From positions 8,742,001 to 8,806,000 of the forward strand of contig NZ_CP108938.1 of NCBI RefSeq assembly GCF_036347135.1: a stretch of 64,000 bases of DNA, written 5' to 3'. The notes below the pieces were generated by a model. That model ran no database searches, was not told the origin of the DNA, and was given only the letters and a program-made list of their open reading frames with translations. Made by a program: the position numbers and the translations under genes. Positions 16,201 to 30,196 of this stretch are shown here, in pieces (the stretch's first letter is position 1; each line of letters starts with the position of its first letter). The stretch is from Streptomyces sp. NBC_00775 (GTDB lineage: Bacteria > Actinomycetota > Actinomycetes > Streptomycetales > Streptomycetaceae).

Positions 16201-16802
16201 CGCTCCAGGAAGACTCCGGCCGAGGAGAAGGAGGCCGCGGCGACCCGCTGGACCCGCTCCCAGGCCTCGGTCAGTTCATCGGCGGAACGACATGCCGACA
16301 TACCGATGCCACCACCACCGCCGGTGGCCTTGAGCATGACGGGATAGCCGATACGCGCGGCTGCTTCCAGGGCCTCCGGAAGACCGGGGAGGAGCCCCGT
16401 ACCCGGCGCCAACGGCACCCCCGCCGCCTCTGCCGCGGCCCGCGCCGTGTGCTTGGCGCCGAACAGCTCCAGCTGCTCCGGCGTCGGCCCCACGAACACG
16501 ATGCCGGCGTCCTCGCAGCGCCGCGCGAAGGCCGCGTCCTCGGAGAGGAAGCCGTATCCGGGGTGGATCGCCCCGGCCCCGGTGTCCTTGGCCGCCTTCA
16601 GGACGAGGTCGGCGTCCAGGTACGACTCCTTGGCGGGCGCGGGGCCCAGCCGTACCGCCTCGTCGGCGAGCCGGACGTGCGGCGCGGAGCGGTCGGGGTC
16701 GGAGTACACGGCGACCGTGCGCAGTCCGAGTTCGCGGGCCGTACGGATGATCCGCACCGCGATCTCGCCGCGGTTGGCGACCAGCAGCGTGTCGAAGGTC
16801 AT
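13287..16802 (-). CDS. Biotin-dependent urea/guanidine carboxylase
   Basis: An ATP- and biotin-dependent carboxylase of 1171 residues. Domains in order: biotin carboxylase (about 1-450; MTFDTLLVANRGEIAVRI and the glycine-rich ATP loop ATGGGGGIGMS), KipA/AHS2 (from about 460; TVQDWPGRTGYWQVGVPPCG), KipI/AHS1 (about 780-1060) and a C-terminal biotinyl domain with ALEAMKMES, whose biotin lysine is K1134. The substrate may be urea or guanidine. The two DUF1989 genes just upstream argue for guanidine, because DUF1989 pairs act as carboxyguanidine deiminase in characterised systems. Its ATG overlaps the preceding stop by 4 bases, so translation is coupled. Confidence 0.93.
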   Translation of the reverse strand: MTFDTLLVANRGEIAVRIIRTARELGLRTVAVYSDPDRSAPHVRLADEAVRLGPAPAKESYLDADLVLKAAKDTGAGAIHPGYGFLSEDAAFARRCEDAGIVFVGPTPEQLELFGAKHTARAAAEAAGVPLAPGTGLLPGLPEALEAAARIGYPVMLKATGGGGGIGMSACRSADELTEAWERVQRVAAASFSSAGVFLERLVEDARHVEVQVFGDGRGRVVTFGDRDCSLQRRNQKVLEEAPAPGLPAAVRGRLASAARDLCASVGYRSAGTVEFVYDAAREEAYFLEVNTRLQVEHPVTEEIYGVDLVAWMLRLARGESDVVRDPGAPRGHAVEARVYAEDPSREHRPSAGLLTRVEFPGGVRVDGWVETGTEVTTSYDPMLAKVIAYGSDRAHALERLDEALARTRIDGIETNLGLVRAALADGSFRRATHSTATLAGVTDPTQRIEVVSGGTLTTVQDWPGRTGYWQVGVPPCGPMDDLSFRLGNRALGNHEGAPGLECTLQGPSLRFTHTTTVCVTGAPAPVTVDGTAVAQWEPVTVPAGAVLEVGAPTEHGLRTYVLFAGGGLDVPAFLGSASTFTLGRFGGHGGRTLRTGDVLHGGSATDHGAPVPIGDRPLFSAAWRVGALEGPHAAPEFFTEDDIHDFYAADWKVHFNSARTGVRLVGPKPRWARTDGGEAGLHPSNIHDTPYSVGAVDYTGDMPVLLGPDGPSLGGFVCPATVVSTERWKLGQFRPGDTVRFAPLADDGSARPAIVDGGVLARDGDVTFRRSGDDNLLVEFGPMQLDLALRMRVHALMEAVAEADLDGVTDLTPGIRSLQIQADPRRLPQRELLAAVREIARTLPPSDQLVVPSRTVHLPLSWDDPATREAIARYMAGVRDDAPWCPWNIEFIRRVNGLDAVEDVYRTVFDAEYLVLGLGDVYLGAPVATPLDPRHRLVTTKYNPARTWTAENSVGIGGAYLCVYGMEGPGGYQFVGRTTQVWSGWQQRGAFEPGSPWLLRFFDRIKWYPVDADELLELRADITSGRFVPRIEEGVFSLADYQSFLTENADSIAEFRTRQGTAFSAERDAWEAAGEFTRAEAASTPATPPVEVTIPEGGRLIEAEFAASVWQLNVQPGDTVTTGQPLLALEAMKMESRVPAPMNGVVHEILAKPGDQVEAGTALLVLAPAS

Positions 16803-17434
16803 TCAGCTGCCCCGATTGCCTCGGCTGCCGCCATGACGTCGGCTGCCTCGATGGTCATCTCCACGGCCGTCGGCTCGAAGCCGTTGCAAGGGTTGTTGAT
16901 CTGCGGGCAGTTGGAGACCAGTACGATCACGTCGCGCTCGGCGCGCAGCGTCAGCTTCAGCCCCGGGGCCGAGATGCCGTCGACGATGCCGAGGGTGCCG
17001 TCCTTCTCGACCGGCACGTTCATGTACCAGTTGATGTTCGAGACGAGATCGCGCTTGCCGAGCCCGTGCTTGGCGCCCTCCGCGAGGAAGTTGTCCACGC
17101 AGGCGTGCTGGGACCAGGTGTGGTGCCCGTACCGGAGGGTGTTCGACTCCTTGGAGCAGGCGCCGCCGACCGTGTCGTGCCGGCCGACCTCGTCCTCCAC
17201 GACGGTCATCAGCGGGGTGTGCTCGTTGGACATCAGCACACTGCCGGTGGTGAGGAAGAGGTTGCCCTGCGCGTGGATCGTGTCGGGCGCGCTGTAGCGG
17301 ACGGCCGTGTCCTGGGCGTCGTACACCAGGAAGTCGACGGCCTGGTTGCCGTGCAGATCGGTGACGGTGAGCGTCTCGCCGGTGCGGATGACGGCCGACC
17401 AGGCGGCCCGGGCCGGGACAGTGACGCGGGTCAT
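16799..17434 (-). CDS. DUF1989 protein, urea carboxylase-associated protein 1 (probable carboxyguanidine deiminase subunit)
   Basis: A 211-residue DUF1989 protein, a subunit of a two-protein deiminase that in studied bacteria converts carboxyguanidine to allophanate between the carboxylase and AtzF steps. The ATG is fixed by GAGGGGGAT just upstream and by its 4-base overlap with the previous stop; a longer frame has no ribosome site. Visible family features are LHGNQAVDFLVYDA near residue 30, SNEHTPLMTVVEDEVGRHDT, a Cys-containing CSKESNTLRYGHHTWSQHAC stretch with likely metal ligands and SNCPQINNPCNGF near the C-terminus. It belongs to the same operon as the carboxylase. Confidence 0.88.
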   Translation of the reverse strand: MTRVTVPARAAWSAVIRTGETLTVTDLHGNQAVDFLVYDAQDTAVRYSAPDTIHAQGNLFLTTGSVLMSNEHTPLMTVVEDEVGRHDTVGGACSKESNTLRYGHHTWSQHACVDNFLAEGAKHGLGKRDLVSNINWYMNVPVEKDGTLGIVDGISAPGLKLTLRAERDVIVLVSNCPQINNPCNGFEPTAVEMTIEAADVMAAAEAIGAAE

Positions 17435-18255
17435 GCGATCCCCCTCGTGGCAAGGAACTCGGCGGTGTTCAGGAAGGCGCGGCGGGCCTCGGGCGTGGCT
17501 TCCCACAGCGGGTCGCCCGGCTTGGTCGCCTCGGTGCGCCAGGCCAGCACCTCCAGGGGGGTGCTCACGTACGCGGGGCGCGGATCGGCGGGATGCGGCA
17601 CGTTCGCGATCAGTACGGTGACGTCCTGCTCGGCGCGCAGGGTCACGCTGCCGCCGGGTCCTGCCGAGCCGGTGAAGTCCAGCGAGCCGTCGTCGCGTAC
17701 CTCCACGCCCTGGAAGAAGGAGAGCGAGGGGGCCAGATCACGTGGTTCGAGCCCGTTCTTGGCGGCGGCCAGCTTGAACAGCTCGCGTCCGGCGGGGGAG
17801 TCCGACTGCGGAGTGCCGTCCCCGTACCGCTCCGTGTTGCGTACGAGCGTGGAAGTGCCGCACAGCGCGTCGTGCCGCCCGGAGGTGTCGGCGACCACCG
17901 AGGCCAGCACGCGGCCCTGGTCGGACAGGAGCAGCTGTCCCTCGCCCAGGTAGGCGTTCCACTGGACCTTGACCGTGTCCGCCACGTTCAGGCGCTCCCA
18001 CGGGCGGTCGGCGACGTACAGGAGGACGTGCGCGCAGGCGTCGCCCTTCAGGTCGGTCAGCCTGAGCTCCGTGCCCCGGGCCAGCACCTTGTGCGTGTAG
18101 TTGCCGCCCGCCACCGTCTCGGCCCACACCAGGTGGCCTGCCTCGCAGGGCGGGGTCGGCCAGGCGCTCGCGGGGACGACGGGCATGGCCTCGGTGCGGG
18201 TGCCGTCCTGTGCTCGGGCGTGGTCGCGTGCTCCGTAGGTGGTTGCTGTCGCCAT
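17431..18255 (-). CDS. DUF1989 protein, urea carboxylase-associated protein 2 (probable carboxyguanidine deiminase subunit)
   Basis: A 274-residue paralogue and partner of the downstream DUF1989 protein and first gene of the minus-strand operon. ATG preceded by GGAGGACC on the minus strand. Conserved stretches include LKGDACAHVLLYVADRPWERL, DTSGRHDALCGTSTLVRN and a central FFQGVEVRDDGSL, paralleling GRHDT and the NVPVEKDGTL region of its sister. The last codons overlap the sister start (ATGA), so the pair is translated as a unit. An inverted repeat sits 32 bases before the start and probably controls the operon. Confidence 0.87.
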   Translation of the reverse strand: MATATTYGARDHARAQDGTRTEAMPVVPASAWPTPPCEAGHLVWAETVAGGNYTHKVLARGTELRLTDLKGDACAHVLLYVADRPWERLNVADTVKVQWNAYLGEGQLLLSDQGRVLASVVADTSGRHDALCGTSTLVRNTERYGDGTPQSDSPAGRELFKLAAAKNGLEPRDLAPSLSFFQGVEVRDDGSLDFTGSAGPGGSVTLRAEQDVTVLIANVPHPADPRPAYVSTPLEVLAWRTEATKPGDPLWEATPEARRAFLNTAEFLATRGIA

Positions 18256-18286: not shown

Positions 18287-18310
18287 TATTTCTGTCGCCC
18301 GACAGAAATT
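18287..18310. promoter_or_regulatory. Inverted-repeat operator of the DUF1989/carboxylase operon
   Basis: Two 10-base arms, TATTTCTGTC and GACAGAAATT, separated by GCCC, form a near-perfect dyad (a perfect 10-bp core also reads with a 2-base spacer). On the minus strand the upstream flank reads CCTAATTTCTGTC, so a TAATTT-like -10 overlaps the dyad. It lies 32 bases before the DUF1989 gene and about 140 before the divergent TetR gene. The same element with the same spacing is at 30006-30029 before the APC permease. The TetR product is the obvious candidate binder. Confidence 0.75.
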
Positions 18311-18343
18311 AGGAGCCCAGGGGGTCGCAGCCGTTGCCCGTGT

Positions 18344-18359
18344 GTTGCCGTACGGTTAC
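18344..18359. promoter_or_regulatory. Candidate second dyad in the TetR intergenic region
   Basis: GTTGCCGTACGGTTAC is an imperfect 16-base dyad around CCGTACGG, placed between the operon operator and the TetR gene. It may be an autoregulatory site or part of the TetR promoter. It has no second copy at the permease, so it is weaker evidence than the 10-4-10 element. Confidence 0.35.
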
Positions 18360-18370
18360 CGATCCCTCAC

Positions 18371-18422
18371 GGGGTGCGGGGCTGTGACGCCATGCGGCTC
18401 CGCCGCGCGGGCGCGGCCGGCC
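18371..18422. repeat. Dispersed GC-rich intergenic element
   Basis: The stretch GGGGTGCGGGGCTGTGAC... through GGCTCCGCCGCGCGGGCGCG closely matches the sequence at 59029-59079 after the mycosin gene, differing at only a few bases. It contains a GGCTCCGCCG block with local self-complementarity. It lies in the leader region of the TetR gene. Confidence 0.6.
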
Positions 18423-18451
18423 ATCGCGAACCCGCGGCTAGGATCGAACAC

Positions 18452-19078
18452 ATGGGCACAGGTGGTGGGCGAAAGGTAGGCAGGCCGCGGGCCGCGCAGC
18501 GGCCGGACAGCGGGCTTACCCCCCGTGCCGAACTGCTCGACGCCGCCGCCGAGTTGTTCACCACGCGGGGATACGCCGCCACGACCACCCGTGCCGTCGC
18601 CGAGCGGGCCGGGATGCGTCAGGCGTCCATGTACCACTACGTCTCCGGCAAGGAGGAGCTGCTCGCCGAGCTCCTGGAGTCCACGGTCACGCCCTCGCTG
18701 ACCTTCGCCCGTGAGCTCCTCGCGGACGACGCGACCCCGGCCGGGGCCCGGCTGTGGGAGCTGTGCCGCACGGATGTCGAGCTGCTCTGCGGCGGCCCGC
18801 ACAACCTCGGCGGGCTCTATCTGCTGCCCGAGGTGCGCACCGAACGCTTCGCCGGCTTCCATGCCGTACGGGCCGAACTCAAGGACGCCTACCGCCAGTT
18901 GCTCGCCGCGACGGCGGCGGGCGGCGCGCTCGCCAAGAGCGAGCTGGACCTGCGGACGGATCTGCTGTTCGGGCTGATCGAGGGTGTCATCCTCGTGCAC
19001 CGCTCGGAGCCGGAGCGGCCGGTGTCGGCGTTCGCGGAGGCCACGGCGGACGCGGCGCTGCGGATCGCCGGGATCTGA
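18452..19078 (+). CDS. TetR/AcrR-family transcriptional regulator
   Basis: A 208-residue regulator. The N-terminal HTH spans about residues 22-68 (AELLDAAAELFTTRGYAATT, TRAVAERAGMRQASMYHYVSGKEELL), and the C-terminal ligand domain is all-helical. The ATG start gives a basic arm, GGGRKVGRPRAAQRP, before the HTH. It is divergent from the DUF1989/carboxylase operon with a 196-base gap holding the 10-4-10 inverted repeat, the usual layout for a local repressor. It probably senses guanidine, urea or a related signal and controls both the operon and the remote permease; that is inferred from the shared sites, not from the protein. Confidence 0.88.
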   Translation: MGTGGGRKVGRPRAAQRPDSGLTPRAELLDAAAELFTTRGYAATTTRAVAERAGMRQASMYHYVSGKEELLAELLESTVTPSLTFARELLADDATPAGARLWELCRTDVELLCGGPHNLGGLYLLPEVRTERFAGFHAVRAELKDAYRQLLAATAAGGALAKSELDLRTDLLFGLIEGVILVHRSEPERPVSAFAEATADAALRIAGI

Positions 19079-19390
19079 ACTCACCGCATTTCAGGGGGGT
19101 TTCACCCGTCCGGGCAGCGGTTTTCGCATGCCCGTGCGCCGTCACGCACCGTGTGCGAATGAAGGCTCAGCGTGTAAATGGGCCGAGGGTACTCCTGTCC
19201 CGTGGGCGATTTCAGGTGCTTGCCGAATATGACACAGCGATGATCCGGTCGGACTAAGCTCGCCCGCAGCGCACCGAGTTGAGGTGTATTCGTGCGCTTG
19301 TTCCCAAAAGTTCCGAAGATTCTGTTTGACCATGACGTTTCCCCCACAAACTTCCCCGACCCCCCAGCCGATTTGTCTCAGAGGGCATAC
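19079..19390 (+). other. Gene-free leader before the rar conservon operon
   Basis: About 310 bases between the TetR stop and rarA, presumably holding the conservon promoter. The central part is less GC-rich than its surroundings. An in-frame GTG at 19292 could extend RarA by 33 residues but has no ribosome site. I see no RNA gene, repeat or clear hairpin here. Confidence 0.5.
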
Positions 19391-20980
19391 ATGGTGAGTG
19401 TTCAATCGCCTCCCGGTGGCCGTGAACTTCCCTACGCGCGCGTGCTGTTGCTGCCGGCCATACTGATGGCCGCGGTGACCGGAGCCGCCGTCGCCGTTGT
19501 GACGGAGCCGGCCCGGGCCGCCGTCGGCTGGTGCGGCGGCATCGCGACACTGCTGGTCGTCGTGATCGGCGCCGAAGCCGTACGCCGCGGTCGCGTCGCC
19601 CGCGGCCTGCGCGCCGAACTCGCTCGGCGCACCGCCTACCTGGAACAGCGCATCGTCGCCCACGACCAGGAGATCGTGCGCCTCCACCACGAGGTCCTGC
19701 CCGCGGCGCTCGACCGCCTGCGCGGCGGCGATTCACTCGCAGAGGTGGTTCGCACCCTCGGCCGCGACGACCCCAACCTCCGCGAAGTCCCCAAGTCTCA
19801 GCGCGACTTGCTGGCGACGGTGCTCAAGATCGTCGACACCGAGGAGTCGATGCGCGACGCGGCCTACCGGGCCTTCGTCAACATCGCCCGGCGCGTCCAG
19901 GCGATCGTCCACCAGCAGAACAAGGAACTCCGCGAGATGGAGGAGGACCACGGGCGCAACCCCGAGGTCTTTGACGACCTGCTGCGCATCGACCACGGCA
20001 CCGCGCTGATCGGCCGTCTCGCCGACTCCATCGCGGTGCTCGGCGGTGGCCGTCCAGGGCGTCAATGGCCGCAGCCCGTACCGCTGTTCAGCGTACTGCG
20101 CGGCGCGATGTCCCGAATCCTCGAATACCGCCGCATCGAGCTGCACAACATCGTCGAGGTCGCCGTCAACGGCGTGTCCGTCGAACCGCTCATCCACGCC
20201 CTGGCCGAGCTCCTCGACAACGCCACGCGCTACTCGCCGCCGCACACCAAGGTCCACGTCACCGCAATCGAGGTGCAGACCGGCATCGCCATCGAGATCG
20301 AGGACGGCGGCGTCAGCCTCAGCGACGAGGCCCGCGCGAAGACCGAGGGCCTGCTCCAGAAGGCCGCGGAGGGCGCCGACCTCGACTTCCTCGGGGAGAA
20401 CCCCCGGCTCGGCATGGCCGTCGTCGGCCGGCTCTCGCGGATGTACGACATGCAGGTCTCGCTGCGGCAGTCCGCGTACGGCGGTGTCCGCGTCGTCCTC
20501 GTCGCGCCGAGCGCCATGCTCACCGCCGACCGTGCCCTCGGTGTCGCCCACGGCATCGGCGCGACCGCCGTACCGCAGATGGACACCGGCGGAGTCGAAG
20601 GCCCGGCGCGCAAGCCCAAGAAGCGCCGCCCGACCACCGGACCCCGCATTCCCAACCCGAACGGCGGCTCCCTGGACGACGACGTCCCCACGGTCACCGA
20701 ATGGACGCCCAACGGGCTGCCGCAGCGCCGCAGCCGGGTCAAGGTCCCGCTCAGCCAGCGGATCGCCGAGGCCCGCGCCGAGGCGGAGGCGGCCGAGGCC
20801 GCGGCGGCAGCGGCACCCTCCTGGGCCGCCGAGGCCGCTCCGGAGGAGAAGGAGCCCGAACCGGGACTGTGGGTCGAGGCGTTCATGAACGGACTCAAGG
20901 GTGACCCGGATCCGACCGCATTCAGCTCGAACAACCAGTCGGCCCCTGTCGAGGCCGACGACGAGGGGGACCTCAAGTGA
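19391..20980 (+). CDS. rarA: Conservon histidine-kinase-like protein RarA (CvnA9)
   Basis: A 529-residue membrane sensor-like protein of the conservon, a complex likened to eukaryotic G-protein receptor systems. GAGGG lies 5 bases before ATG. Two transmembrane helices sit at about residues 15-60 (LLLPAILMAAVTGAAVAVV and GWCGGIATLLVVVIG). A coiled linker and a cytoplasmic HATPase domain follow (N box ALAELLDNATRYSPP near residue 275; DGGVSLSD). No phospho-acceptor H box is evident, as in other CvnA proteins. The Ala-rich tail is disordered. In S. coelicolor the rar operon restrains aerial mycelium formation. Its stop overlaps rarB. Confidence 0.92.
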   Translation: MVSVQSPPGGRELPYARVLLLPAILMAAVTGAAVAVVTEPARAAVGWCGGIATLLVVVIGAEAVRRGRVARGLRAELARRTAYLEQRIVAHDQEIVRLHHEVLPAALDRLRGGDSLAEVVRTLGRDDPNLREVPKSQRDLLATVLKIVDTEESMRDAAYRAFVNIARRVQAIVHQQNKELREMEEDHGRNPEVFDDLLRIDHGTALIGRLADSIAVLGGGRPGRQWPQPVPLFSVLRGAMSRILEYRRIELHNIVEVAVNGVSVEPLIHALAELLDNATRYSPPHTKVHVTAIEVQTGIAIEIEDGGVSLSDEARAKTEGLLQKAAEGADLDFLGENPRLGMAVVGRLSRMYDMQVSLRQSAYGGVRVVLVAPSAMLTADRALGVAHGIGATAVPQMDTGGVEGPARKPKKRRPTTGPRIPNPNGGSLDDDVPTVTEWTPNGLPQRRSRVKVPLSQRIAEARAEAEAAEAAAAAAPSWAAEAAPEEKEPEPGLWVEAFMNGLKGDPDPTAFSSNNQSAPVEADDEGDLK

Positions 20981-21384
20981 TCCAGCAGCGAGCCAACTTC
21001 GACTGGATGCTCAAGGAGCTCGCCGACGGCGTACCCGGTATCCAGCAGATCGTGGTGCTCTCCGCCGACGGACTGCGCATCGCGCGGTTCGGCGGTGACC
21101 CGGACGCCGCCGACCGGGTCGCCGCGGCCTGCGCGGGCCTGCAGAGCCTGGCCGGAGCCGTCGCGGGAGAGATCCCCAACAGCGACGGCCGGATGCGCAT
21201 GGTCATCATCGAGATCAACGGCGGCTACTTCTACCTGATGTCGGCAGGGCCCAACGCCTACCTCGCGGTCCTCGCCGACCAGACGGCGGAGCCCGGACTG
21301 ATGAGCAACCGTATGCGCGACCTCGTCGTACGGATCGGCGCCCACCTGACGAGTCCGCCGCGGCGCAACGGGCAGACCGTATGA
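20977..21384 (+). CDS. rarB: Roadblock/LC7 protein RarB (CvnB9)
   Basis: A 135-residue roadblock/LC7 domain protein of the conservon, thought to act as a regulator of the RarD GTPase, like MglB. QQRANFDWMLKELADGVPGI starts the fold; VVLSADGLRIARFGGD and MRMVIIEINGGYFYLMSAG follow the typical alpha/beta plan. The GTG start overlaps the rarA stop (GTGA) and the stop overlaps rarC (ATGA), so the four proteins are translationally coupled. Confidence 0.93.
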   Translation: MIQQRANFDWMLKELADGVPGIQQIVVLSADGLRIARFGGDPDAADRVAAACAGLQSLAGAVAGEIPNSDGRMRMVIIEINGGYFYLMSAGPNAYLAVLADQTAEPGLMSNRMRDLVVRIGAHLTSPPRRNGQTV

Positions 21385-21818
21385 CTCCTCCGCAACGCCG
21401 GCGGCGCTACCCCAAGGAAGAGTTCCAGGAACCCCCCCAAGAGAGGTCCCCCGAAAAGGGATCCCCCGCAGAGGGCCAGGACAACCCGAGGGACCCCGAG
21501 CGCCTGTATGTGCTCACGGGCGGGGGCGAGGGCGGCGACCGGGCCGCCCTCGACCTGGTGACGTTAATCGTGGCGCGCGCCGACGAGCCGACCCCCGCCA
21601 CCCAGCCGGAGCAGTCGGCGCTGCTCCGGCTCTGCAAGGCCCCTCTCTCCGTGGCCGAGCTCTCGGCCTATCTCAATCTGCCGTTCAGCGTGGTGACCGT
21701 CCTGCTCACCGAGCTGCTGGCGGCCGAACTGGTACAGGCGCGCGCCCCGATCGTCCGCTCGGCGCTCCCCGACCGTTCCCTCCTCGAAGCGGTGATGCAT
21801 GGACTTCAAAAGCTCTGA
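21381..21818 (+). CDS. rarC: DUF742 protein RarC (CvnC9)
   Basis: A 145-residue DUF742 conservon component. A basic, disordered N-terminus (PPQRRRRYPKEEFQ) is followed by RLYVLTGGG near residue 35 and a winged-helix-like region (LLRLCKAPLSVAELSAYLNL then VVTVLLTELLAAELV) typical of the family. It overlaps rarB by 4 bases and rarD by 20. The conserved helix-turn-helix-like part suggests protein or DNA contact, but its role is not established by the sequence. Confidence 0.92.
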   Translation: MTPPQRRRRYPKEEFQEPPQERSPEKGSPAEGQDNPRDPERLYVLTGGGEGGDRAALDLVTLIVARADEPTPATQPEQSALLRLCKAPLSVAELSAYLNLPFSVVTVLLTELLAAELVQARAPIVRSALPDRSLLEAVMHGLQKL

Positions 21819-22413
21819 CACGATCACCGGCCCTCGCGCCGAGGACCATCTGCCGCACACGGCGCAGGCCGCCGTGAAGATCGTGATCGTGGGCGGCTTC
21901 GGGGTCGGCAAGACGACCATGGTGGGCTCCGTCAGCGAGATCAGGCCGCTGACCACCGAGGAGACCATGACGCAGGCCGGTATCGGAGTCGACGACAACT
22001 ACGGCTCCGAGACCAAGACGGCCACCACCGTCGCCATGGACTTCGGCCGCATCTCGATCACCGAACAGCTGGTGCTCTACCTGTTCGGCACCCCTGGCCA
22101 GGAGCGCTTCTGGTTCCTGTGGAACGGCCTGTTCGAGGGCGCGCTCGGCGCGGTCGTCCTGGTCGACACCCGCCGCCTGGAGGTCAGCTTCGACGTGATC
22201 GGCCGCCTGGAGGAGCGCGGTGTGCCGTTCGTCATCGCCATAAACGACTTCCCGGACGCGCCCCGCTATCCGGTCGAGGACCTGCGGACCGCGCTCGACC
22301 TCTCCGAGGACATCCCGATCATCAAGTGCGACGCGCGCCGCAGGGCCTCCAGCCGGGATGTCCTGATGACGCTGATGCGCTTCCTGCACTCGCTGGCCAT
22401 GACGCGCGCCTGA
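21799..22413 (+). CDS. rarD: Conservon small GTPase RarD (CvnD9)
   Basis: A 204-residue Ras-like GTPase of the conservon. G1 GGFGVGKTTMVGSV lies near residue 31-44, a switch-I region rich in Thr follows (TTEETMTQAGIG), G3 is GTPGQERFWFLW, and G4 reads AINDFPD (NDxxD instead of the NKxD of Ras, the form seen in this family). It starts within the rarC end and is followed by rarE after an 80-base gap. The GTPase is thought to cycle on the RarA/RarB membrane complex. Confidence 0.93.
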   Translation: MDFKSSDTITGPRAEDHLPHTAQAAVKIVIVGGFGVGKTTMVGSVSEIRPLTTEETMTQAGIGVDDNYGSETKTATTVAMDFGRISITEQLVLYLFGTPGQERFWFLWNGLFEGALGAVVLVDTRRLEVSFDVIGRLEERGVPFVIAINDFPDAPRYPVEDLRTALDLSEDIPIIKCDARRRASSRDVLMTLMRFLHSLAMTRA

Positions 22414-22494
22414 ACCCCCCGCACGCACCGAATCCGTACGCAGATACGCCAACTCCCAAGACACCGGATCCACTTCAGTTTCGGAGCGATCACC

Positions 22495-23967
22495 GTGACG
22501 CCTGAATCCCACTCCCCGACCGGTACGGACGACCCCACGCTCGGCCCGCCGCCCGGCTGCCCCGCCCACGGCCTCGGTCCCGGCGGACTGCGCCGGCTGT
22601 ACGGCCCCGAAGCCGAGGACCTGGGAGCCGTATACGAGAAACTGCGCGCCGAGCACGGCTCGGTGGCCCCCGCGCTGCTCCACGAGGACGTGCCGGTCTG
22701 GGTGGTGCTCGGTCACGGCGAGAACATGCACATGGTGCGCACCCCCTCGCAGTACACCCGTGACACCCGGTTGTGGGCCCCCTTGCAGGACGGCACGGTC
22801 AAGCCGGATCACCCGCTCATGCCGATCGTCGCCTGGCAGCCCATCTGCTGCCACGCCGAGGGCGACGAGCACCTGCGGCTGCGCGGCGCGGTCACCGGCG
22901 CCATGTCGACCATCGACCACCGGGGCATCCGCCGCCACATCAACCGCGCGACTCAGCACCTCGTCAACAAGTTCTGCGAGGAGGGCAGGGCCGACCTGGT
23001 GGCCCAGTTCGCCGAGCACCTGCCGATGGCAATGATGTGCGAGATCCTCGGCATGCCCGAGGAGTACAACGACCGGCTCGTGCACGCCGCCCGCGACATG
23101 CTCAAGGGCACCGAGACCGCCATCGCCAGCAACGCGTACCTCATGGACGTGCTGATGCGGCTCACCACCCGCCGCCGGGCCGACCCCAGGGAGGACTTCA
23201 CCAGCCACCTGATCAACCACCCGGCGCGGCTCGACGACCAGGAGATCGGCCAGCACCTGCGCGTCGTCCTGATCGTCGCGTACGAGAGCACCGCCAACCT
23301 GCTCGCCAACGTACTGCGGGTCGTGCTCACCGACCCGGGGTTCCGCGCCCGGCTCAACGGCGGCCAGATGACGGTGCCTCAGGCGGTCGAGCAGTCCCTG
23401 TGGGACGAGCCGCCGTTCAGCACCATCCTCCCCTACGTCGCCAAGCAGGAGACCGAGCTGGGTGGCCAGCGCATCCGCAAGGGTGACGGGCTCATCCTGG
23501 GCATGGCGCCGGGCAACGTCGACCCGCGCGTCCGTCCCGACCTCAAGGCCAACATGCAGGGCAACCGCTCCCACCTCGCTTTCAGCGGCGGTCCCCACGA
23601 GTGCCCGGGCCAGGACATCGGCCGCGCCATCGCCGACGTCGGCGTCGACGCGCTGCTGACCCGCCTTCCGGACATCCAACTCGACTGCGAAGAGTACGAA
23701 CTGCGCTGGCGAGCGTCCATCTCGAACCGGCACCTGGTGGAACTGCCGGTGAAGTTCGCGCCGAGGCCTCAGCAGGACGTCAGGCAGCGGCCCTCCATCA
23801 ACCCGGTGCCGCCGCAGCGCCCGAACGACTGGCTGGTCAGCACGTATCAGCCACAGCCCATGGCTCCGGAACCCGTCATCCCGGCCGGCGAGCCCACGCC
23901 CGCGCCCGAACTGGCCCGCCGGCCGGGAGTGTTCCGGCGCCTCCTGCGCTGGTGGCGCGGCGACTGA
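22495..23967 (+). CDS. rarE: Conservon cytochrome P450 RarE (CYP157-type, no ExxR arginine)
   Basis: A 490-residue P450-fold protein, last gene of the rar operon. The heme loop FSGGPHECPGQDIGR has its cysteine at C370, and the I helix is VAYESTANLLANVLR. The K-helix, normally ExxR, reads EQSLW at residues 299-303, with Trp replacing the arginine and Gln and Ser between. The same EQSLW is described in CYP157C1 of S. coelicolor. The GTG start is preceded by AGCGATCACC, a weak ribosome site. A Pro-rich extension and basic tail (RRLLRWWRGD) follow the P450 fold. It may serve as a structural or redox partner of the conservon complex. Confidence 0.9.
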   Translation: MTPESHSPTGTDDPTLGPPPGCPAHGLGPGGLRRLYGPEAEDLGAVYEKLRAEHGSVAPALLHEDVPVWVVLGHGENMHMVRTPSQYTRDTRLWAPLQDGTVKPDHPLMPIVAWQPICCHAEGDEHLRLRGAVTGAMSTIDHRGIRRHINRATQHLVNKFCEEGRADLVAQFAEHLPMAMMCEILGMPEEYNDRLVHAARDMLKGTETAIASNAYLMDVLMRLTTRRRADPREDFTSHLINHPARLDDQEIGQHLRVVLIVAYESTANLLANVLRVVLTDPGFRARLNGGQMTVPQAVEQSLWDEPPFSTILPYVAKQETELGGQRIRKGDGLILGMAPGNVDPRVRPDLKANMQGNRSHLAFSGGPHECPGQDIGRAIADVGVDALLTRLPDIQLDCEEYELRWRASISNRHLVELPVKFAPRPQQDVRQRPSINPVPPQRPNDWLVSTYQPQPMAPEPVIPAGEPTPAPELARRPGVFRRLLRWWRGD

Positions 23968-23985
23968 GCCGACCGGGCACCGGGG

Positions 23986-24930
23986 CTACCCGGCCCACTC
24001 CTCGTACGACGACCAGGCCCGCAGCACACGCGGGCTGACGAACCGGTGCTCGCGTCCCGTGACCGGATCGGTGAACTCCAGGGCCCGCGCCAGCAGTTGG
24101 AGCGGGCGCCGGAAGTCACCGTCCGCCACGGGGCCGGTCACCACCGGATAGAGGGGATCGCCGAGGATCGGCACCCCCAACGCGCTCATGTGCACCCGCA
24201 GTTGGTGCGTCTGCCCGGTGCGGGGTCTCAGCCGGTAGCGAGCCAGCCCGTCGTCCCGCTGTTCCAGCAGCTCCACGTCGCTGACGGCATTGGGCTCGCC
24301 CTCGACCTCGCGCGCCGCCATGACCCCACGCTCCTTCACGATCCGACTGCGCACGGTGCGCGGCAGGGCGAGCGCCGGATCGTACAGGGCGACGGCCTCG
24401 TATTCCTTGGTGATGAGCCGGTCGCTGAACAACGACTGGTACGCGCCGCGCTCCGCGGGGCGCACAGTGAACAGGACCAGCCCGGCGGTGAGCCGGTCCA
24501 GGCGGTGGGCGGCGCCCAGCGTGGGCAGGCCCAGCTCCCGGCGCAGTCGCGCGAGCGCGGTCTCCGTGACATGGCTGCCGCGTGGCGTCGTGGCCAGGAA
24601 ATGCGGCTTGTCGACGACGACGACGTGCTCGTCGCGGTACACGACGTCCAGCGCGAACGGCACCGGCACTTCGTACGGCAGCTCCCGGTGGAACCACACG
24701 AACATGCCCGGCACGTACGCCATGTCACGCGGCACGGCACGCCCGTCGGCGTCCACGATCAGCCCCGCGTCCAGCATCCCGTCGATCACCCCCGCCCCGG
24801 CCGCGAGCCGCTCCACCAGATGATCACGCACGGTTGCCCAGGCCGCCCCCTGCGGCAGTTTCACCCGCACCGGATCGACCCCGTCGCGCTGCGGCAGGGG
24901 GGAAGGGGGGATCGGGCTTCTGCGTCTCAT
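23986..24930 (-). CDS. RluA-family 23S rRNA/tRNA pseudouridine synthase
   Basis: A 314-residue enzyme isomerising uridine to pseudouridine in RNA. The ATG giving MRRRSPIPPSPLPQRDG is chosen; the frame stays open far upstream but without a ribosome site. An N-terminal region (RVKLPQGAAWATVRDHLVERL) precedes the catalytic domain with VVVDKPHFLATTPRGSH and GAAHRLDRLTAGLVLF, where the HRLD aspartate is the catalytic residue, and LRPRTGQTHQLRVHMSALG downstream. It ends 18 bases from rarE and converges on it. The exact RNA site cannot be assigned from sequence. Confidence 0.9.
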   Translation of the reverse strand: MRRRSPIPPSPLPQRDGVDPVRVKLPQGAAWATVRDHLVERLAAGAGVIDGMLDAGLIVDADGRAVPRDMAYVPGMFVWFHRELPYEVPVPFALDVVYRDEHVVVVDKPHFLATTPRGSHVTETALARLRRELGLPTLGAAHRLDRLTAGLVLFTVRPAERGAYQSLFSDRLITKEYEAVALYDPALALPRTVRSRIVKERGVMAAREVEGEPNAVSDVELLEQRDDGLARYRLRPRTGQTHQLRVHMSALGVPILGDPLYPVVTGPVADGDFRRPLQLLARALEFTDPVTGREHRFVSPRVLRAWSSYEEWAG

Positions 24931-25709
24931 CACGATCAAGCGTACGAGGGGGCACTGACAGGCGGGGTACGAGCCGGTCCCGACCTTGTGTTCGGGCCGG
25001 TGGAGAACCGGACTTCCACGGACCGGGGCCGGTGGAAATACGGTGTGCCCGCCCGTGCTCCGTCGGCAGGACGCGGGCCATGCCTTTCCTCTCCAGCGCA
25101 GCCCTGCCCGCCGGAACCCATGCCCAGCGCCCACAGCCCAGAACGCACAGTGGGCCGTCACCGACGCGGACACCGACCCGCTGCGAGGGCGATCCTGACT
25201 CGCTGGGCCCTCGGCGAGATCGGCTTCCACCGCCTCGAATCTCTGGCCCAGTTCGTCCTTCGCCGACCGGTTGTCGCGCCAATCCACCGTCCGCCTCGTG
25301 GCTCCGTCCGGGACCGAGGGGGGCGCGCGTGTCGTGATCTGCGACCGTCCAGATGTGAGTGCAACTCGTTCAAGCATGGATCAATGGCGGCCACTTCCGG
25401 TCTGGACCGAACTGCGATGTGATAGAAGCTGCAACCGTCGAAGGCGGCGCGTCCTGTTCGCGCCACCGCGGAAGGAGGAGCCCGTTGCGCCACTCGTTCC
25501 CGTCGTCGCCCGCCGGGGCCGCCACTGCCTCGGCCCTCTTGGAGCACGCCCGTGAGCGGGCGCGCCAACAGCGCACACGGGGATGTCCTCGTACGTCACC
25601 GTGAAGCACCGATCGTCCAACTCCTCGGCTTCTCGCTGCGAGAGCAGGCAACCTGCCCCACGCCTCACGCGCCTCAGCCAACTTCGGCGCCATAGACATG
25701 GAGGACTTA
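24931..25709. other. Gene-poor 780-base stretch before the terpene cassette
   Basis: No credible gene is seen. Short open frames on both strands have no consistent codon bias or ribosome site. The last 300 bases are less GC-biased than the flanks. A minus-strand frame near 25600-25690 contains SQREAEELDDRCFTVTYEDI, which reads like coding debris, and a plus-strand frame near 25380-25430 reads SGPNCDVIEAATVEGG, loosely like a DUF397 core. Neither can be assigned. The stretch may be the remains of a regulator locus broken up before or when the terpene pair arrived. Confidence 0.4.
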
Positions 25710-26759
25710 GTGCTCGCCATGATCCCAACGTACGCGGAGCCCACCCCCCCGACGGTAAGTCCATACACTCGGCGGATCGAAGAATATGTCCGCTCGCTCG
25801 GAGAGAGCCTCGGGCTGGCAGAGACGAAGGGCGGCCGGGAACGGCTGGAAGCAGGCTACGGGCAATTTGTTGCCTGGACCTATCCAGAAGCCTCATTCCG
25901 CGATCTCTGCCTCTGTGCGGAATGGCTTTTCTTCACCTTCATCCTGGACGACTTGCACACGTTGAAGGTCTATGACGATCCGGAAGCCTGGACTCCGGTC
26001 CACCGGCGTCTGATGGACATCATCAACACCGGGAAAGACCCTGCACCCGCATGGGAGCAAACTCCTTTCACTGAGGCGCTCACGGATCTGTCCATCCGTA
26101 CGGGCGAAAGGCTCTCACCAGCGCTCCATGGGCGACTGAACCGGCACCTGGACCTGTTCTTCCAAGGATTCACCGAGGAATCCGAGAATCGGTTCCGCGG
26201 AACTCCCCCTGGGATCGACAGTTTCACCCAGACCAGGCGACTGTCGGTAGGTATGGAGTTCGGCTTCGATTTGGTTGAACTCAGCCAGGGCACGGAGGTG
26301 CCTGAAAGCATCTATGAGACAGGCTTGTTCAGGAAGATCGTCGAAGCCGCGAGCGATGTGGTCGCCTGGCAGAATGACTTGCATTCGATTCACCTGGATG
26401 GCATGCGTGGAGACTTCCACAATGTCGTCATCGTCATGCAGCATGCCGACGGAATCTCGCTGCAGGAAGCCATCGACTCGGCCGTTGCCAGGGTTCAGGG
26501 GCGCGTGGCCGACTTCCTGGCCGCCGAAGAACAGCTCCGGCCCTTCCTGGAGAGCCGTGGTGTGCCGTCCCGCACCCGTGACGACGTTCTGAAGGTCACT
26601 GCCGGAATGCGGCAGTGGACGAATGGATGCCTGCATTGGTACGGGAACACCACCCGCTACACCATCCCCACCACCTCGGACGAGTCGGACCAGCAGCATG
26701 CTCACCTGCAGGCGATGCTCCCGAGTCAGGATCGTGCCCTCCGGCATAGTTGCGGGTGA
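25710..26759 (+). CDS. Class I terpene synthase with variant metal motifs
   Basis: A 349-residue class I terpene cyclase, expected to cyclise farnesyl or related diphosphate. The GTG start has GGAGG 5 bases upstream; an ATG four codons earlier overlaps that site and has none of its own. The aspartate motif is FILDDLHT, so DDxxT (D80, D81, T84) replaces DDxxD/E. The second motif is NDLHSIHLD (N222, S226, D230), with Asp for the usual Glu. The diphosphate sensor Arg (R176) lies 46 residues before N222 and the RY pair is in NTTRYTIP. Length and helix pattern fit a complete one-domain enzyme. Codon use is less GC-biased than in neighbours. A P450 gene follows, so a modified terpenoid is likely; its identity is unknown. 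Confidence 0.85.
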   Translation: MLAMIPTYAEPTPPTVSPYTRRIEEYVRSLGESLGLAETKGGRERLEAGYGQFVAWTYPEASFRDLCLCAEWLFFTFILDDLHTLKVYDDPEAWTPVHRRLMDIINTGKDPAPAWEQTPFTEALTDLSIRTGERLSPALHGRLNRHLDLFFQGFTEESENRFRGTPPGIDSFTQTRRLSVGMEFGFDLVELSQGTEVPESIYETGLFRKIVEAASDVVAWQNDLHSIHLDGMRGDFHNVVIVMQHADGISLQEAIDSAVARVQGRVADFLAAEEQLRPFLESRGVPSRTRDDVLKVTAGMRQWTNGCLHWYGNTTRYTIPTTSDESDQQHAHLQAMLPSQDRALRHSCG

Positions 26760-26890
26760 CCAGCAAGGAATACGCACCGGCTTCCTCGACGCCGGCCCGC
26801 ACGAGGCTCCCGCCCCATCGACGCGAACCAAGAGCGACTTGCAGCACAAGCTCGCCAACATCCTGGATCGACAAGAAGGGCCAACGCGCC

Positions 26891-28234
26891 ATGGCAACGG
26901 ACCATGAAGGCATCGCACAGGCTCCAGGGGCACTGCCGATCGTCGGGCATCTGTTTCCCCTGCTCCGTGACCCGCTGCGTTTCCTGAACACCCTCCCCTC
27001 CTATGGGGATTTAGTGCAGATACGGCTGGGTACACAAACGGCCGTCGTAGTCTGCCGGCCTGAACTCGTCCAGGAAGTTCTCCTGCATGACCGCACTTAC
27101 GACAAGGGCGGACCCATCATCGAACGGATCGGGAATGCGCTGGGGGACGGTCTTGCCTCGTGCCCCCACAGCGCCCATCGGCGACAGCGACGCAGCTTGC
27201 AGCCGGCCTTCTCCCGCGCTTGCCTGCGCGAATACGCCGCCCTCATGACCGAGCAGATCGACACGCTCGCCGTCGGCTGGAGCGACGGACGGACCGTGGA
27301 CGTAGCCGCGCAGATGTACGATTTCGCGAGTGACACAATTTCTCGAACATTGTTCACGGCTGAAGCCGCGCGACCCGCCATAGACACTGTCAAGGAATGT
27401 CTGCCGGATATCTTCCGGGGTATCTACCAGCAGGCTGTCCTCCCGCCCTGGCTGAGCCGTCTGCCACTCCCCCCGAACTTGCGTTACGAGCGGGCTCGCA
27501 ACCGAGCATGGGCCGCGGTCAGCAAGACCATCAGCTTGTACCGGCAAGACGATGAAACCCACGGCGATGTGCTGTCGATGCTCCTCAAGACGCATGACGA
27601 CGCGGGAGAACTCCTCGGCGACGCCGAGATCCACGCTCAGATCATGACCCTGCTCGTCGCCGGCATCGAATCCACCGCGGTGGCTCTTACCTGGGCTGTG
27701 CATCTCCTGTGCCAAAACCCCGATGTCCAAGAGCGATTGCGCGCCGAGACAGCCGAGGTTCTCGGCACCCGAACGGCCACTTGGGATGATCTTCCCCGGC
27801 TCGACCTGGCGCGCCGGGTCATCACCGAGACGCTGCGCATCTACCCTCCCGGATGGATCTTGACTCGAACGACCGCCACCGAAGCCCGGCTGGCGGACGC
27901 TGTGATTCCCCCCGAAACCACCCTCATCTACAGCCCGTATCTCATGCACCACGATGCACGATTCAATCCGAGCCCCAGCTCCTTCGATCCCGACCGGTGG
28001 CTTCCGGAGCAGGAACACGTGCGCGGCGCTTTCATTCCGTTCGGCGGAGGTGCGCGCAAGTGCATCGGTGACAACTACGCGATGACCTTGGCGACACTCG
28101 CCCTGTCCACGATCGTGGCCCAATGGCGGCTCTCGAGTGTTGACCAGCAACTGCCGCATATCGAACCCCGTATGACCCTGACCCCTCACGGTGTCCAGGT
28201 CCGAGTGGAGTGTCTGCAGAGAGTGCCTGATTGA
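26891..28234 (+). CDS. Cytochrome P450 paired with the terpene synthase
   Basis: A 447-residue bacterial P450, complete. ATG with AGAAGGG about 10 bases upstream; an upstream in-frame extension would overlap the terpene synthase end and has no ribosome site. I helix LLVAGIESTAVALTWA contains the AGxxST oxygen-activation motif, the K helix has ETLR (ExxR intact, unlike RarE), and the heme loop FIPFGGGARKCIGD holds C391. The LPIVGHLFPLLRDPLRF N-terminus resembles terpenoid-oxidising P450s such as CYP170. It lies 131 bases after the terpene synthase in the same direction and probably oxidises its product. Codon use is similarly relaxed. Confidence 0.85.
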   Translation: MATDHEGIAQAPGALPIVGHLFPLLRDPLRFLNTLPSYGDLVQIRLGTQTAVVVCRPELVQEVLLHDRTYDKGGPIIERIGNALGDGLASCPHSAHRRQRRSLQPAFSRACLREYAALMTEQIDTLAVGWSDGRTVDVAAQMYDFASDTISRTLFTAEAARPAIDTVKECLPDIFRGIYQQAVLPPWLSRLPLPPNLRYERARNRAWAAVSKTISLYRQDDETHGDVLSMLLKTHDDAGELLGDAEIHAQIMTLLVAGIESTAVALTWAVHLLCQNPDVQERLRAETAEVLGTRTATWDDLPRLDLARRVITETLRIYPPGWILTRTTATEARLADAVIPPETTLIYSPYLMHHDARFNPSPSSFDPDRWLPEQEHVRGAFIPFGGGARKCIGDNYAMTLATLALSTIVAQWRLSSVDQQLPHIEPRMTLTPHGVQVRVECLQRVPD

Positions 28235-28260
28235 CGGAGGATCACCCGTCTGTGTCGGGT

Positions 28261-28377
28261 TGGCTTGATCGCTGGACTGGAGAAGCCCGCGAGACCGGCC
28301 AGTGCCACAGCAGTCAGACCCGCGTCCTTGCGGATCTCACGAAGGCACTGGCCGAGTGCTCGTCGGGCTTCGGCGAC
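28261..28377 (-). pseudogene. Debris of an XRE-family (DUF5753-type) regulator N-terminus
   Basis: On the minus strand the frame reads VAEARRALGQCLREIRKDAG then LTAVALAGLAGFSS, the first half of an XRE helix-turn-helix typical of abundant Streptomyces regulators (xxARRALGxxLRELRKDAGLTGRELA). The recognition helix and the rest of the protein are missing, no start codon lies in frame, and a TGA stands 30 bases upstream of the first residue shown. It sits directly between the P450 and the permease and looks like a scar of a broken gene next to the terpene cassette. Confidence 0.6.
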
Positions 28378-28395
28378 GCCGGACGGCGGAACCGC

Positions 28396-29958
28396 TCAGC
28401 TGGACTCTGCGGGCACCGCCAGCGGTGCTCCTTCCTCCGCGGTGTGCCCTCGATGTGCCCTCAGCCACCGGTACAGGCACCCCAGCCCCACCGTGACCAG
28501 CAAGAACAACACGGTGAACCACTGGAAGTACCAGTGCCCGCCCGCCGGGTCGTACACCTCGGCGCGCGGCCAGGCGAGGTTGACGGTCATGAAGAGGCCG
28601 TAGACGAGGGCGAGCGCGTTGACCGGGGCGCCCCAGCGGCCGAGGGAGAAGAGGGGGCGGCCCTCCTCGTCGACGCCGTCCGAGCCGGTGAACTCGCCGC
28701 GCAGACGGCGGACCAGCATCGGCCCGGTCACCATCGCGTACGCCAGGTACAGCATCACGATGCAGGTGGTGCCGATCGCCAGGAAGGCGTCCGGGGAGGC
28801 GAAGTTGAGGAGCAGCAGGGCGGCGGCGAGGACGCCGACGACCAGGGCGGGCGCGCTCGGCATGCCCGTGCGCGGGTTGACCTTCGCGAGGCGGCGGGAG
28901 AAGGGGAGCTGGTTGTCGCGGGCCATCGAGAAGAGCATGCGGCAGGCGGCCGTCTGGATCGCCAGGGTCGCCACCGCGATGGCCACCACCACGTCGGCGA
29001 GCAGCGCCCGGCCGACCCCGTCGCCGAGGCTGCTGGTCAGGACGTAGCTCAGACCGTCGACGCCCAGATGCCCGTCCGTGAGGCTGGGCGCGGCCAGCAG
29101 ACCGCCGAGCACGATCAGCCCGCCGAGCAGGCCCGCCGCGCCGAGCGCGGTGAGGATCGTACGGGGCGCGGTACGGCGCGGGTTGTGGGTCTCCTCGCTC
29201 ATCTCGCCCGCGCTGTCGAAGCCGATCATCACGTACGCCGCCATGAAGGAGCCCACCATGAGCGCGCCGAAGAGGCCGGTGCTGCCCTCGCCCGTGTGGA
29301 AGGTGATGCCGGGGGAGCGCTCGGAGTGCGTGAGCAGCAGCACGATGATCAGGACCGCGCCGATGATCTCGGCGGTCACACCGACCCGGTTGATCACGGA
29401 CATCACGCGGTTGTCGACGACGTTGACCAGCGTGGTCAGCACCAGCAGGATCACGCCGAGTACGGCCGCGTTGGCGGCGCCGTCGGCGCTGATCGGTGAC
29501 GGATCGCCGCCCACCAGCTGGAAGCCGGACCAGATCGCCGGCAGCACCATCTGCAGCGCGAGCGCGGCCGCTGCGACCACCACGATCTGCCCGATCACCA
29601 TGATCCAGCCGGCGAACCAGCCGAACGAGAGGTTCGACAGGCGCGAGGACCACTGGTAGATCGCGCCCGAGATCGGATAGCGCGCGGCCAGCTCCGCGAA
29701 GCACGCGGCGACCGCCAACTGGCCCACCAGCACGGCCGGCCAGGTCCAGAAGAAGACGGGGCCGCCGAACGCGTACCCGAAGGCGAAGAACTGGAAGACG
29801 GTCGTCAGGACGGAGATGAAGGAGAACCCGGCGGCGAACGAGGCGTACCGGCCGAGGCTGCGGTGCAGCTCCTGGCGGTAGCCGAACTCGGCCAGGGAGT
29901 GGTCGCCGGGGGACTCCGGCGGGTCCGGGCGTACGTCGGAGGGGGCGGTGGTGGTCAC
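28396..29958 (-). CDS. APC-superfamily permease, likely guanidine/urea-pathway uptake partner
   Basis: A 520-residue amino acid/polyamine/cation permease with about 12 helices. N-terminal signature: FGYRQELHRSLGRYASFAAGFSFISV; central GFDSAGEMSEETHNPRRTAP is a strong APC loop. GTG start with GGCAGGTG just before it on the minus strand. The N- and C-termini are hydrophilic, as for a symporter. No transporter accompanies the DUF1989/carboxylase operon itself. Forty-seven bases before this start lies the inverted repeat shared with that operon, so the permease probably imports its substrate. The substrate is inferred; sequence alone says only APC family. Confidence 0.88.
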   Translation of the reverse strand: MTTTAPSDVRPDPPESPGDHSLAEFGYRQELHRSLGRYASFAAGFSFISVLTTVFQFFAFGYAFGGPVFFWTWPAVLVGQLAVAACFAELAARYPISGAIYQWSSRLSNLSFGWFAGWIMVIGQIVVVAAAALALQMVLPAIWSGFQLVGGDPSPISADGAANAAVLGVILLVLTTLVNVVDNRVMSVINRVGVTAEIIGAVLIIVLLLTHSERSPGITFHTGEGSTGLFGALMVGSFMAAYVMIGFDSAGEMSEETHNPRRTAPRTILTALGAAGLLGGLIVLGGLLAAPSLTDGHLGVDGLSYVLTSSLGDGVGRALLADVVVAIAVATLAIQTAACRMLFSMARDNQLPFSRRLAKVNPRTGMPSAPALVVGVLAAALLLLNFASPDAFLAIGTTCIVMLYLAYAMVTGPMLVRRLRGEFTGSDGVDEEGRPLFSLGRWGAPVNALALVYGLFMTVNLAWPRAEVYDPAGGHWYFQWFTVLFLLVTVGLGCLYRWLRAHRGHTAEEGAPLAVPAESS

Positions 29959-30005
29959 GGCGGCACCTGCCTTCGGCGCGGAAGGGTGAGCGGGACGACG
30001 AGCTG

Positions 30006-30029
30006 AATTCCTGTCGGGTGACAGAAATT
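30006..30029. promoter_or_regulatory. Inverted-repeat operator upstream of the APC permease
   Basis: Arms AATTCCTGTC and GACAGAAATT around GGGT, with one mismatch, the same 10-4-10 dyad as at 18287-18310. The flanks agree too: on the minus strand both read CCTAATTTCTGTC, placing a TAATTT-like -10 across the dyad in the same orientation relative to the gene. Two copies of a 24-base dyad 12 kb apart, each before one unit of a possible pathway, suggest control by one regulator. Confidence 0.75.
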
Positions 30030-30128
30030 AGGGAGACCCTGTTTCGCTCGCGTGACGCGGCCATGTCGACGGCGGGCCTAAGTCCTCACGCCTTGCCTCC
30101 CCTGCCGAAACGCGATACATCGTGTCTA

Positions 30129-30158: not shown

Positions 30159-30196
30159 CGGCTACGGATATTCGGAGGCGAGGTGGGATCATCGTG

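Follow-up and report, generated by a model that had tools for sequence, protein, structure and literature searches.

The DNA analyzed here, a window of 64,000 nucleotides from the chromosome of Streptomyces sp. NBC_00775 (contig NZ_CP108938.1, positions 8,742,001 to 8,806,000), very probably holds an AmtR regulon in which one local TetR-type repressor acts through two operators, one before a guanidine operon and one before a permease gene, with GlnR probably placed above it. The regulator and its two sites, in window coordinates, are as follows.

18287-18310 (core 18292-18305): AmtR operator 1, predicted, a 24-base dyad before the DUF1989/carboxylase operon
30006-30029 (core 30011-30024): AmtR operator 2, predicted, a 24-base dyad before the permease gene
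18452..19078, plus strand: amtR, encoding a TetR-family repressor of 208 amino acids (PF00440), divergent from the operon

A first-pass annotation of this DNA had described both inverted repeats at these positions with an identical context toward each gene, and both particulars are borne out: CCTAATTTCTGTC is common to the two dyads when each is read toward its own gene. The bare core CTGTC-N4-GACAG is common, with 15 places in the genome versus 9 for a reversed control, and a loose search of the window (18-mer, up to three mismatches) gave two matches against a shuffle mean of 1.14, a result equalled by 33 of 100 shuffles and not significant. The full 24-mer with up to three mismatches occurs at these two places only in the 11,096,612-base genome, and its reversed control at none. 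The first-pass annotation had asked for such a search in this and related genomes, holding that many copies before unrelated genes would speak against shared control; they are absent from this genome and from 199 congeners.

Those congeners, a genus sample of 199 Streptomyces genomes, were searched for the pattern TTYCTGTCN4GACAGAAA with zero mismatches and the reversed pattern as control. The exact dyad is present in 47 of them and the control in none of the 199; two dyad places were found in 40 of the 47 positive genomes, one in seven, and more than two in none. A carboxylase like that of the operon (E ≤ 1e-250) is encoded in 55 of the 199 genomes and an AmtR relative (E ≤ 1e-30) in 65, and the 47 genomes with the exact dyad all belong to the 55 with the carboxylase, while 0 of the 144 carboxylase-negative genomes have it. 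The eight carboxylase genomes without it comprise two with the Asn-type carboxylase described below (G069 and G171, where DUF1989 genes and AmtR were not seen within the stretch), five with a distant AmtR and a variant operator of the form TACCTGTC-N4-GACAGGTA before a permease gene that heads the operon (G003, G007, G020, G063 and G111), and one (G097) whose dyad copies carry one mismatch each. AmtR accompanies the carboxylase in 52 of the 55 genomes, the exceptions being G069, G171 and G139, a 1010-contig assembly in which no AmtR relative was found even at E ≤ 1e-15. The genus thus includes a second, distant type of cluster (L107-L111, L167-L170), with a permease-led operon, amtR at its end and the TACCTGTC-N4-GACAGGTA operator. 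In two further places (genome G014, contig C90, 135960-135999; L149, 8849-8893) copies or near-copies of the dyad stand in tandem, 20-22 bp apart.

By its sequence, the TetR protein is AmtR. The closest PDB sequence is that of M. smegmatis AmtR (5E57, E 2.4e-38), and the top six matches run from E 2.4e-38 to 2.6e-29, the next TetR protein following at 1.6e-12; 5E57, 5MQQ and 6GY3 are named AmtR, and the other three, 5DY1, 5DY0 and 5DXZ, are presumably C. glutamicum AmtR entries. A mycobacterial AmtR relative (L165) matches 5E57 at E 2.4e-82. Both window sites have the form CTGTC-N4-GACAG, the same core as in the AmtR consensus TAtCTGTCa-n2-cGACAGATAT given in the cited part of PMC8864220. Asp108, Asn118, Glu127 and Glu177 are among the ligand-domain residues conserved in the operon-linked AmtR proteins; they are largely kept in AmtR relatives without an operon and therefore do not discriminate between the two.

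The likeness of the two sites extends beyond the operator. Promoters of 70 loci and the window were aligned gap-free on the dyad, with none excluded for a missing site, giving 58 operon promoters (45 distinct) and 26 permease promoters (26 distinct), the other 13 loci being operon-less AmtR loci. The core, with at most one mismatch, precedes the operon in 58 of 58 promoters (45 distinct) and the permease gene in 26 of 26. Around it lie the following elements.

18306..18311, minus strand: TAATTT, a -10-like hexamer abutting the core of operator 1, immediately preceding CTGTC in all 45 distinct operon promoters
30025..30030, minus strand: TAATTT, a -10-like hexamer abutting operator 2, found in 25 of 26 permease promoters, the remaining one having TATTTT
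18322..18370, minus strand: GlnR-box-like half-sites of the operon promoter in 11-bp phase, GTGAG (18370-18366), GTAAC (18359-18355), GCAAC (18348-18344), GCAAC (18337-18333) and GACCC (18326-18322)
30041..30089, minus strand: phased, GlnR-box-like half-sites of the permease promoter, GTGAG (30089-30085), GACAT (30067-30063), GTCAC (30056-30052) and GAAAC (30045-30041)

The first-pass annotation had the -10 element overlapping the dyad, which holds for the outer dyad arm, within which TAATTT lies, and fails for the CTGTC core, which the hexamer abuts. Upstream, the half-sites of operon and permease promoters fall in one 11-bp register. Operon promoters have GTAAC, GCAAC, GCAA and GAC at -54, -43, -32 and -21, and GTNAC-N6-G[AC]AA[CT] is found at -54 in 42 of the 45 distinct sequences; permease promoters have GACA, GTCAC and GAAAC at -43, -32 and -21, nothing box-like at -54, and the same pattern at -32 in 17 of 26. 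The background frequency of this pattern is one per 29.5 kb. Compared with the Streptomyces GlnR box consensus gTnAc-n6-GaAAc (PMC10704036, cited part), the window's operon promoter matches at eight of the nine specified bases and its permease promoter (GTCAC-N6-GAAAC) at nine of nine, in both cases upstream of the -10 element, and a score of at least 8 is reached by 0.22% of 20000 random 80-mers from the window. TAATTT, phased half-sites and dyad at both promoters thus make up a shared composite promoter, at which GlnR probably activates and AmtR probably represses. The GTGAG at -65 (18366-18370 and 30085-30089) stands in the same register at both promoters, and its conservation is close to that of the GlnR-like half-sites; it fits the quoted GlnR consensus poorly. 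The first-pass annotation mentions neither the GlnR-like boxes nor the published precedent taken up below.

The genes under these promoters are the following.

17431..18255, minus strand: DUF1989 protein UAAP1, a carboxyguanidine deiminase subunit of CgdA/CgdB type (PF09347; TIGR03425, 318 bits, cutoff 206)
16799-17434, minus strand: DUF1989-type protein UAAP2, the second deiminase subunit (TIGR03424, 329 bits, cutoff 285), its gene overlapping both neighbors by 4 bases each
13287..16802, minus strand: biotin-dependent carboxylase, annotated as urea carboxylase, of guanidine type (TIGR02712, 1847 bits; alignment to 5I8I; Asp698/Asp921)
11511..13163, minus strand: allophanate hydrolase (TIGR02713, 707 bits, cutoff 511)
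28396..29958, minus strand: APC-superfamily permease, a probable guanidine importer (PF13520; TIGR03428, E 1.8e-196)

The first-pass annotation had left open whether the operon serves urea or guanidine, and the active site favors the latter. Asp at the positions equivalent to K. lactis 1330 and 1584 is the criterion for a guanidine carboxylase in the cited part of PMC11410670, and the corresponding part of PMC12186494 gives Asp for guanidine carboxylase and Asn for urea carboxylase at position 1330. The window enzyme has Asp698 at 1330, read from the 5I8I alignment, and Asp921 at 1584, matched through the conserved VLGLGD motif. Beside it are the UAAP1 and UAAP2 genes, both above their TIGRFAM cutoffs, and the carboxyguanidine deiminase assignment is made from those profile scores and this position. 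Judged by the active-site residue, the substrate is more likely guanidine than urea, and we infer that guanidine is what the pathway uses in vivo.

The company kept by each carboxylase type was compared in 60 loci, 40 from the genus (the window included) and, for other genera of the class, 20 stretches belonging to 19 genomes, covering 36 of the 55 carboxylase genomes within the genus and 19 of 22 outside it (G329, G338 and G428 were left out). Presence or absence was judged within the stretches compared, with identity thresholds of 38% for AmtR and 45% for DUF1989 proteins and permease, and several of the stretches end before the permease position. The residue at 1330 is Asp in 51 loci (38 from the genus, 13 from others) and Asn in nine (two and seven). 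The DUF1989 pair was found in 51 of the 51 Asp loci, AmtR in 50, the permease in 39 and the perfect core in 43; each of the four was found in none of the nine Asn loci. Among the eight Asp loci lacking the core, three (L108, L109 and L111) have a site in further DNA (L168-L170) and four (L100, L162, L163 and L165) have sites with one mismatch. The single Asp locus without an adjoining AmtR, L175 of genome G370, has amtR about 1.15 Mb away and retains both dyads with their composite promoters.

A scan of named genomes used a mycobacterial Asp-type carboxylase as query. Its best 80 matches, M. smegmatis not among them, were Asp-type in 80 of 80 cases, with AmtR in 73, a DUF1989 gene in 78 and the permease in 50 of the 80 stretches; since the query was itself Asp-type, the uniform outcome is no unbiased test. 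Two Mycobacterium sp. loci (L242 and L243) combine the Asp-type cluster, the permease and a perfect core, with AmtR not seen in the stretch, an arrangement resembling that published for M. smegmatis. Carboxylase relatives were also found in 1270 plasmid records (330 of them covering at least 80% of the enzyme), most frequently from Rhizobium.

Control by a guanidine riboswitch was considered and rejected: none was found at window positions 11000-31500 (E up to 5), nor, at the gathering score, in 28 other stretches, with the 27 loci of the nearest type (L073, L077-L082 and L087-L106) lying outside that scan.

The permease gene lies 12 kb from the operon, and the first-pass annotation took it for an uptake gene split from its partners by a conservon and a terpene block. 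The genus loci agree with such a split. Of the loci compared, 26 have both genes. The distance between permease gene and amtR is at most 0.5 kb in nine of them, about 1.7 kb in two and 5.9-9.3 kb in 15, among which is the window; in the five genomes with the variant operator, and in some loci from other genera, the permease gene comes first in the operon, behind the dyad. As to what separates them, a conservon-like set and a terpene synthase are indeed present, and the block also includes a weak P450 match, a pseudouridine synthase and a P450. In the four loci of the distant-permease type that were checked (L088, L090, L095 and L101), conservon-like genes also stand in between, together with a P450-like gene and a pseudouridine synthase; the terpene synthase and second P450 are extra in the window. 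Divergent from the permease gene, at window positions 30194-30841, is a PadR-family regulator gene, a relative of which stands beside the permease in 7 of the 25 genus loci that have permease and amtR (not all of the compared stretches reach this far).

Several observations weigh against the regulon as we describe it. The permease scores 653.6 bits on TIGR03428 (urea carboxylase system permease), under the cutoff of 740.45, and is classed here as a relative and not as a member. The part predicted for GlnR is based on a motif. Thirteen of the 65 AmtR genomes have no carboxylase, and the perfect core was not seen in those stretches, so AmtR may have another target there. In the named-genome scan the perfect core was found in only 35 of the 80 stretches, and L158 has no core site within one mismatch. 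Lastly, Asp and Asn carboxylases lie on the two sides of a single tree branch, so that the association of Asp enzymes with AmtR counts as one evolutionary split, not many.

The operon-less AmtR relatives (L067-L072, L074-L076, L083/L116 and L084-L086; 13 genomes) are 65-80% identical, and neither the permease nor a perfect core was seen within their stretches. A DEAD-box helicase and a pseudouridine synthase, which flank the amtR region within the window, still bracket AmtR in 10 of these 13 genomes, and the helicase flank alone is kept in two more.

In its outline, the system is an instance of a regulon already in the S. avermitilis and M. smegmatis literature; it is ordinary in kind and largely known, the two operators with their regulator having been described in a related species. 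A 2013 study of S. avermitilis by Chen et al. (Microbiology 159:2571) reportedly established direct AmtR control of both units, with direct binding between 6700/6701 and between 6709/6710 and at two further sites, and is said to have taken the pathway as one of urea or general nitrogen metabolism. The M. smegmatis AmtR motif is CTGTC-N4-GACAG, the same kind of dyad as in the window. Table 3 of PMC4222082, in the part cited here, lists for S. avermitilis an amidase (sav6697), a carboxylase (sav6698), AmtR on the opposite strand (sav6701) and a permease set apart (sav6709), the same gene types and layout as in the window. According to the cited part of the same paper, M. smegmatis AmtR binds in front of a permease-urf-carboxylase-allophanate hydrolase set, upstream of its leading permease gene, deletion of amtR derepresses that set, its expression is GlnR-dependent, and AmtR binding is unaffected by urea or amino acids. 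Unlike the window, where amtR adjoins the operon and two sites serve two units, M. smegmatis has amtR elsewhere and the permease gene (msmeg_2184) first. C. glutamicum AmtR belongs to the same protein family and has a related dyad (CTAT-N6-ATAG); it is described in the cited part of PMC8864220 as a central nitrogen repressor, whereas the window AmtR has a very small regulon. The first-pass proposal, in which the TetR protein governs both units, is thus supported by its identity as AmtR, by published binding and derepression in M. smegmatis and by the S. avermitilis gene set, and we infer that AmtR binds both operators in this strain.

The guanidine pathway under riboswitch control described for Raoultella, Klebsiella and others (PMC12186494 and PMC11410670, cited parts) shares with the window an Asp1330 carboxylase, CgdA/CgdB-type DUF1989 proteins, an allophanate hydrolase and a dedicated importer. 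It differs in its control, by riboswitch there and by a predicted protein repressor here, and in its importer, which is of ABC type there and APC type here.

In the mechanism we propose, AmtR on the CTGTC-N4-GACAG dyad directly downstream of TAATTT would block transcription at both promoters, one driving the two DUF1989 deiminase subunits, the guanidine-type biotin carboxylase and the allophanate hydrolase, the other the APC permease. GlnR, the general nitrogen regulator, would probably activate both through the phased half-sites that lie just upstream. Under nitrogen shortage, and with the substrate available, guanidine would enter the cell and be carboxylated; deimination would then yield allophanate, to be cleaved to ammonia and CO2. 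Guanidine or a pathway intermediate is the candidate inducer of AmtR.

That the dyads are chance sequences or belong to another regulator, the TetR gene being a mere neighbor, would fit the near-background frequency of the bare core and the non-significant window test; their conservation at both promoters, their absence from the 144 carboxylase-negative genomes, the persistence of both in G370 though its amtR lies elsewhere on the chromosome, and a core identical to that of the published AmtR consensus (PMC8864220, cited part) make this extremely improbable. The same regulator and sites might instead belong to urea metabolism, as annotated, and TIGR02712 does label the enzyme a urea carboxylase at 1847 bits, just as the AmtR papers describe urea metabolism. 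We consider this improbable, since the window enzyme has Asp where Asn would mark a urea carboxylase (K. lactis position 1330), the adjoining DUF1989 deiminase genes would be superfluous for a urea route, the nine Asn-type loci have neither DUF1989 genes nor AmtR in their stretches, and urea at 0.5-5 mM left M. smegmatis AmtR binding unchanged (PMC4222082, cited part).

A stronger contender, which we place not far short of even, dispenses with a metabolite inducer: induction would come from GlnR alone or, as in C. glutamicum, from a PII protein, with AmtR merely dampening expression. In M. smegmatis nitrogen control survives amtR mutation and is lost without glnR (PMC4222082, cited part); C. 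glutamicum AmtR has no known small effector, its release by adenylylated GlnK being proposed (PMC8864220, cited part); and both window promoters have GlnR-like boxes. Conversely, a repressor dedicated to one pathway suggests pathway-specific sensing, and in the cited part of PMC4222082 urea and amino acids are the compounds said to have been tried as effectors. Tentatively, and with the balance leaning against it, we suggest that AmtR in GlnR-bearing actinomycetes is a dedicated guanidine-pathway repressor released by guanidine or by carboxyguanidine/allophanate, not a regulator of urea or general nitrogen metabolism, a reading that would account for the lack of effect of urea and amino acids on AmtR binding in M. 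smegmatis. With the same reserve, AmtR so understood might be the protein counterpart of guanidine riboswitches. Our literature search, which had most subscription journals outside its coverage, found no paper joining AmtR as a repressor with guanidine.

To the published regulon the analysis adds the composite promoter with its GlnR-like half-sites, a candidate inducer and, above all, a reassignment: the carboxylase active site and the genes beside it recast the "urea" operon under AmtR as a guanidine operon, and AmtR accompanies the guanidine-type and not the urea-type carboxylase in the loci compared. If guanidine proves to be the inducer, actinomycetes would possess a protein that senses guanidine, for which the bacterial sensors described in the papers cited here are riboswitches.

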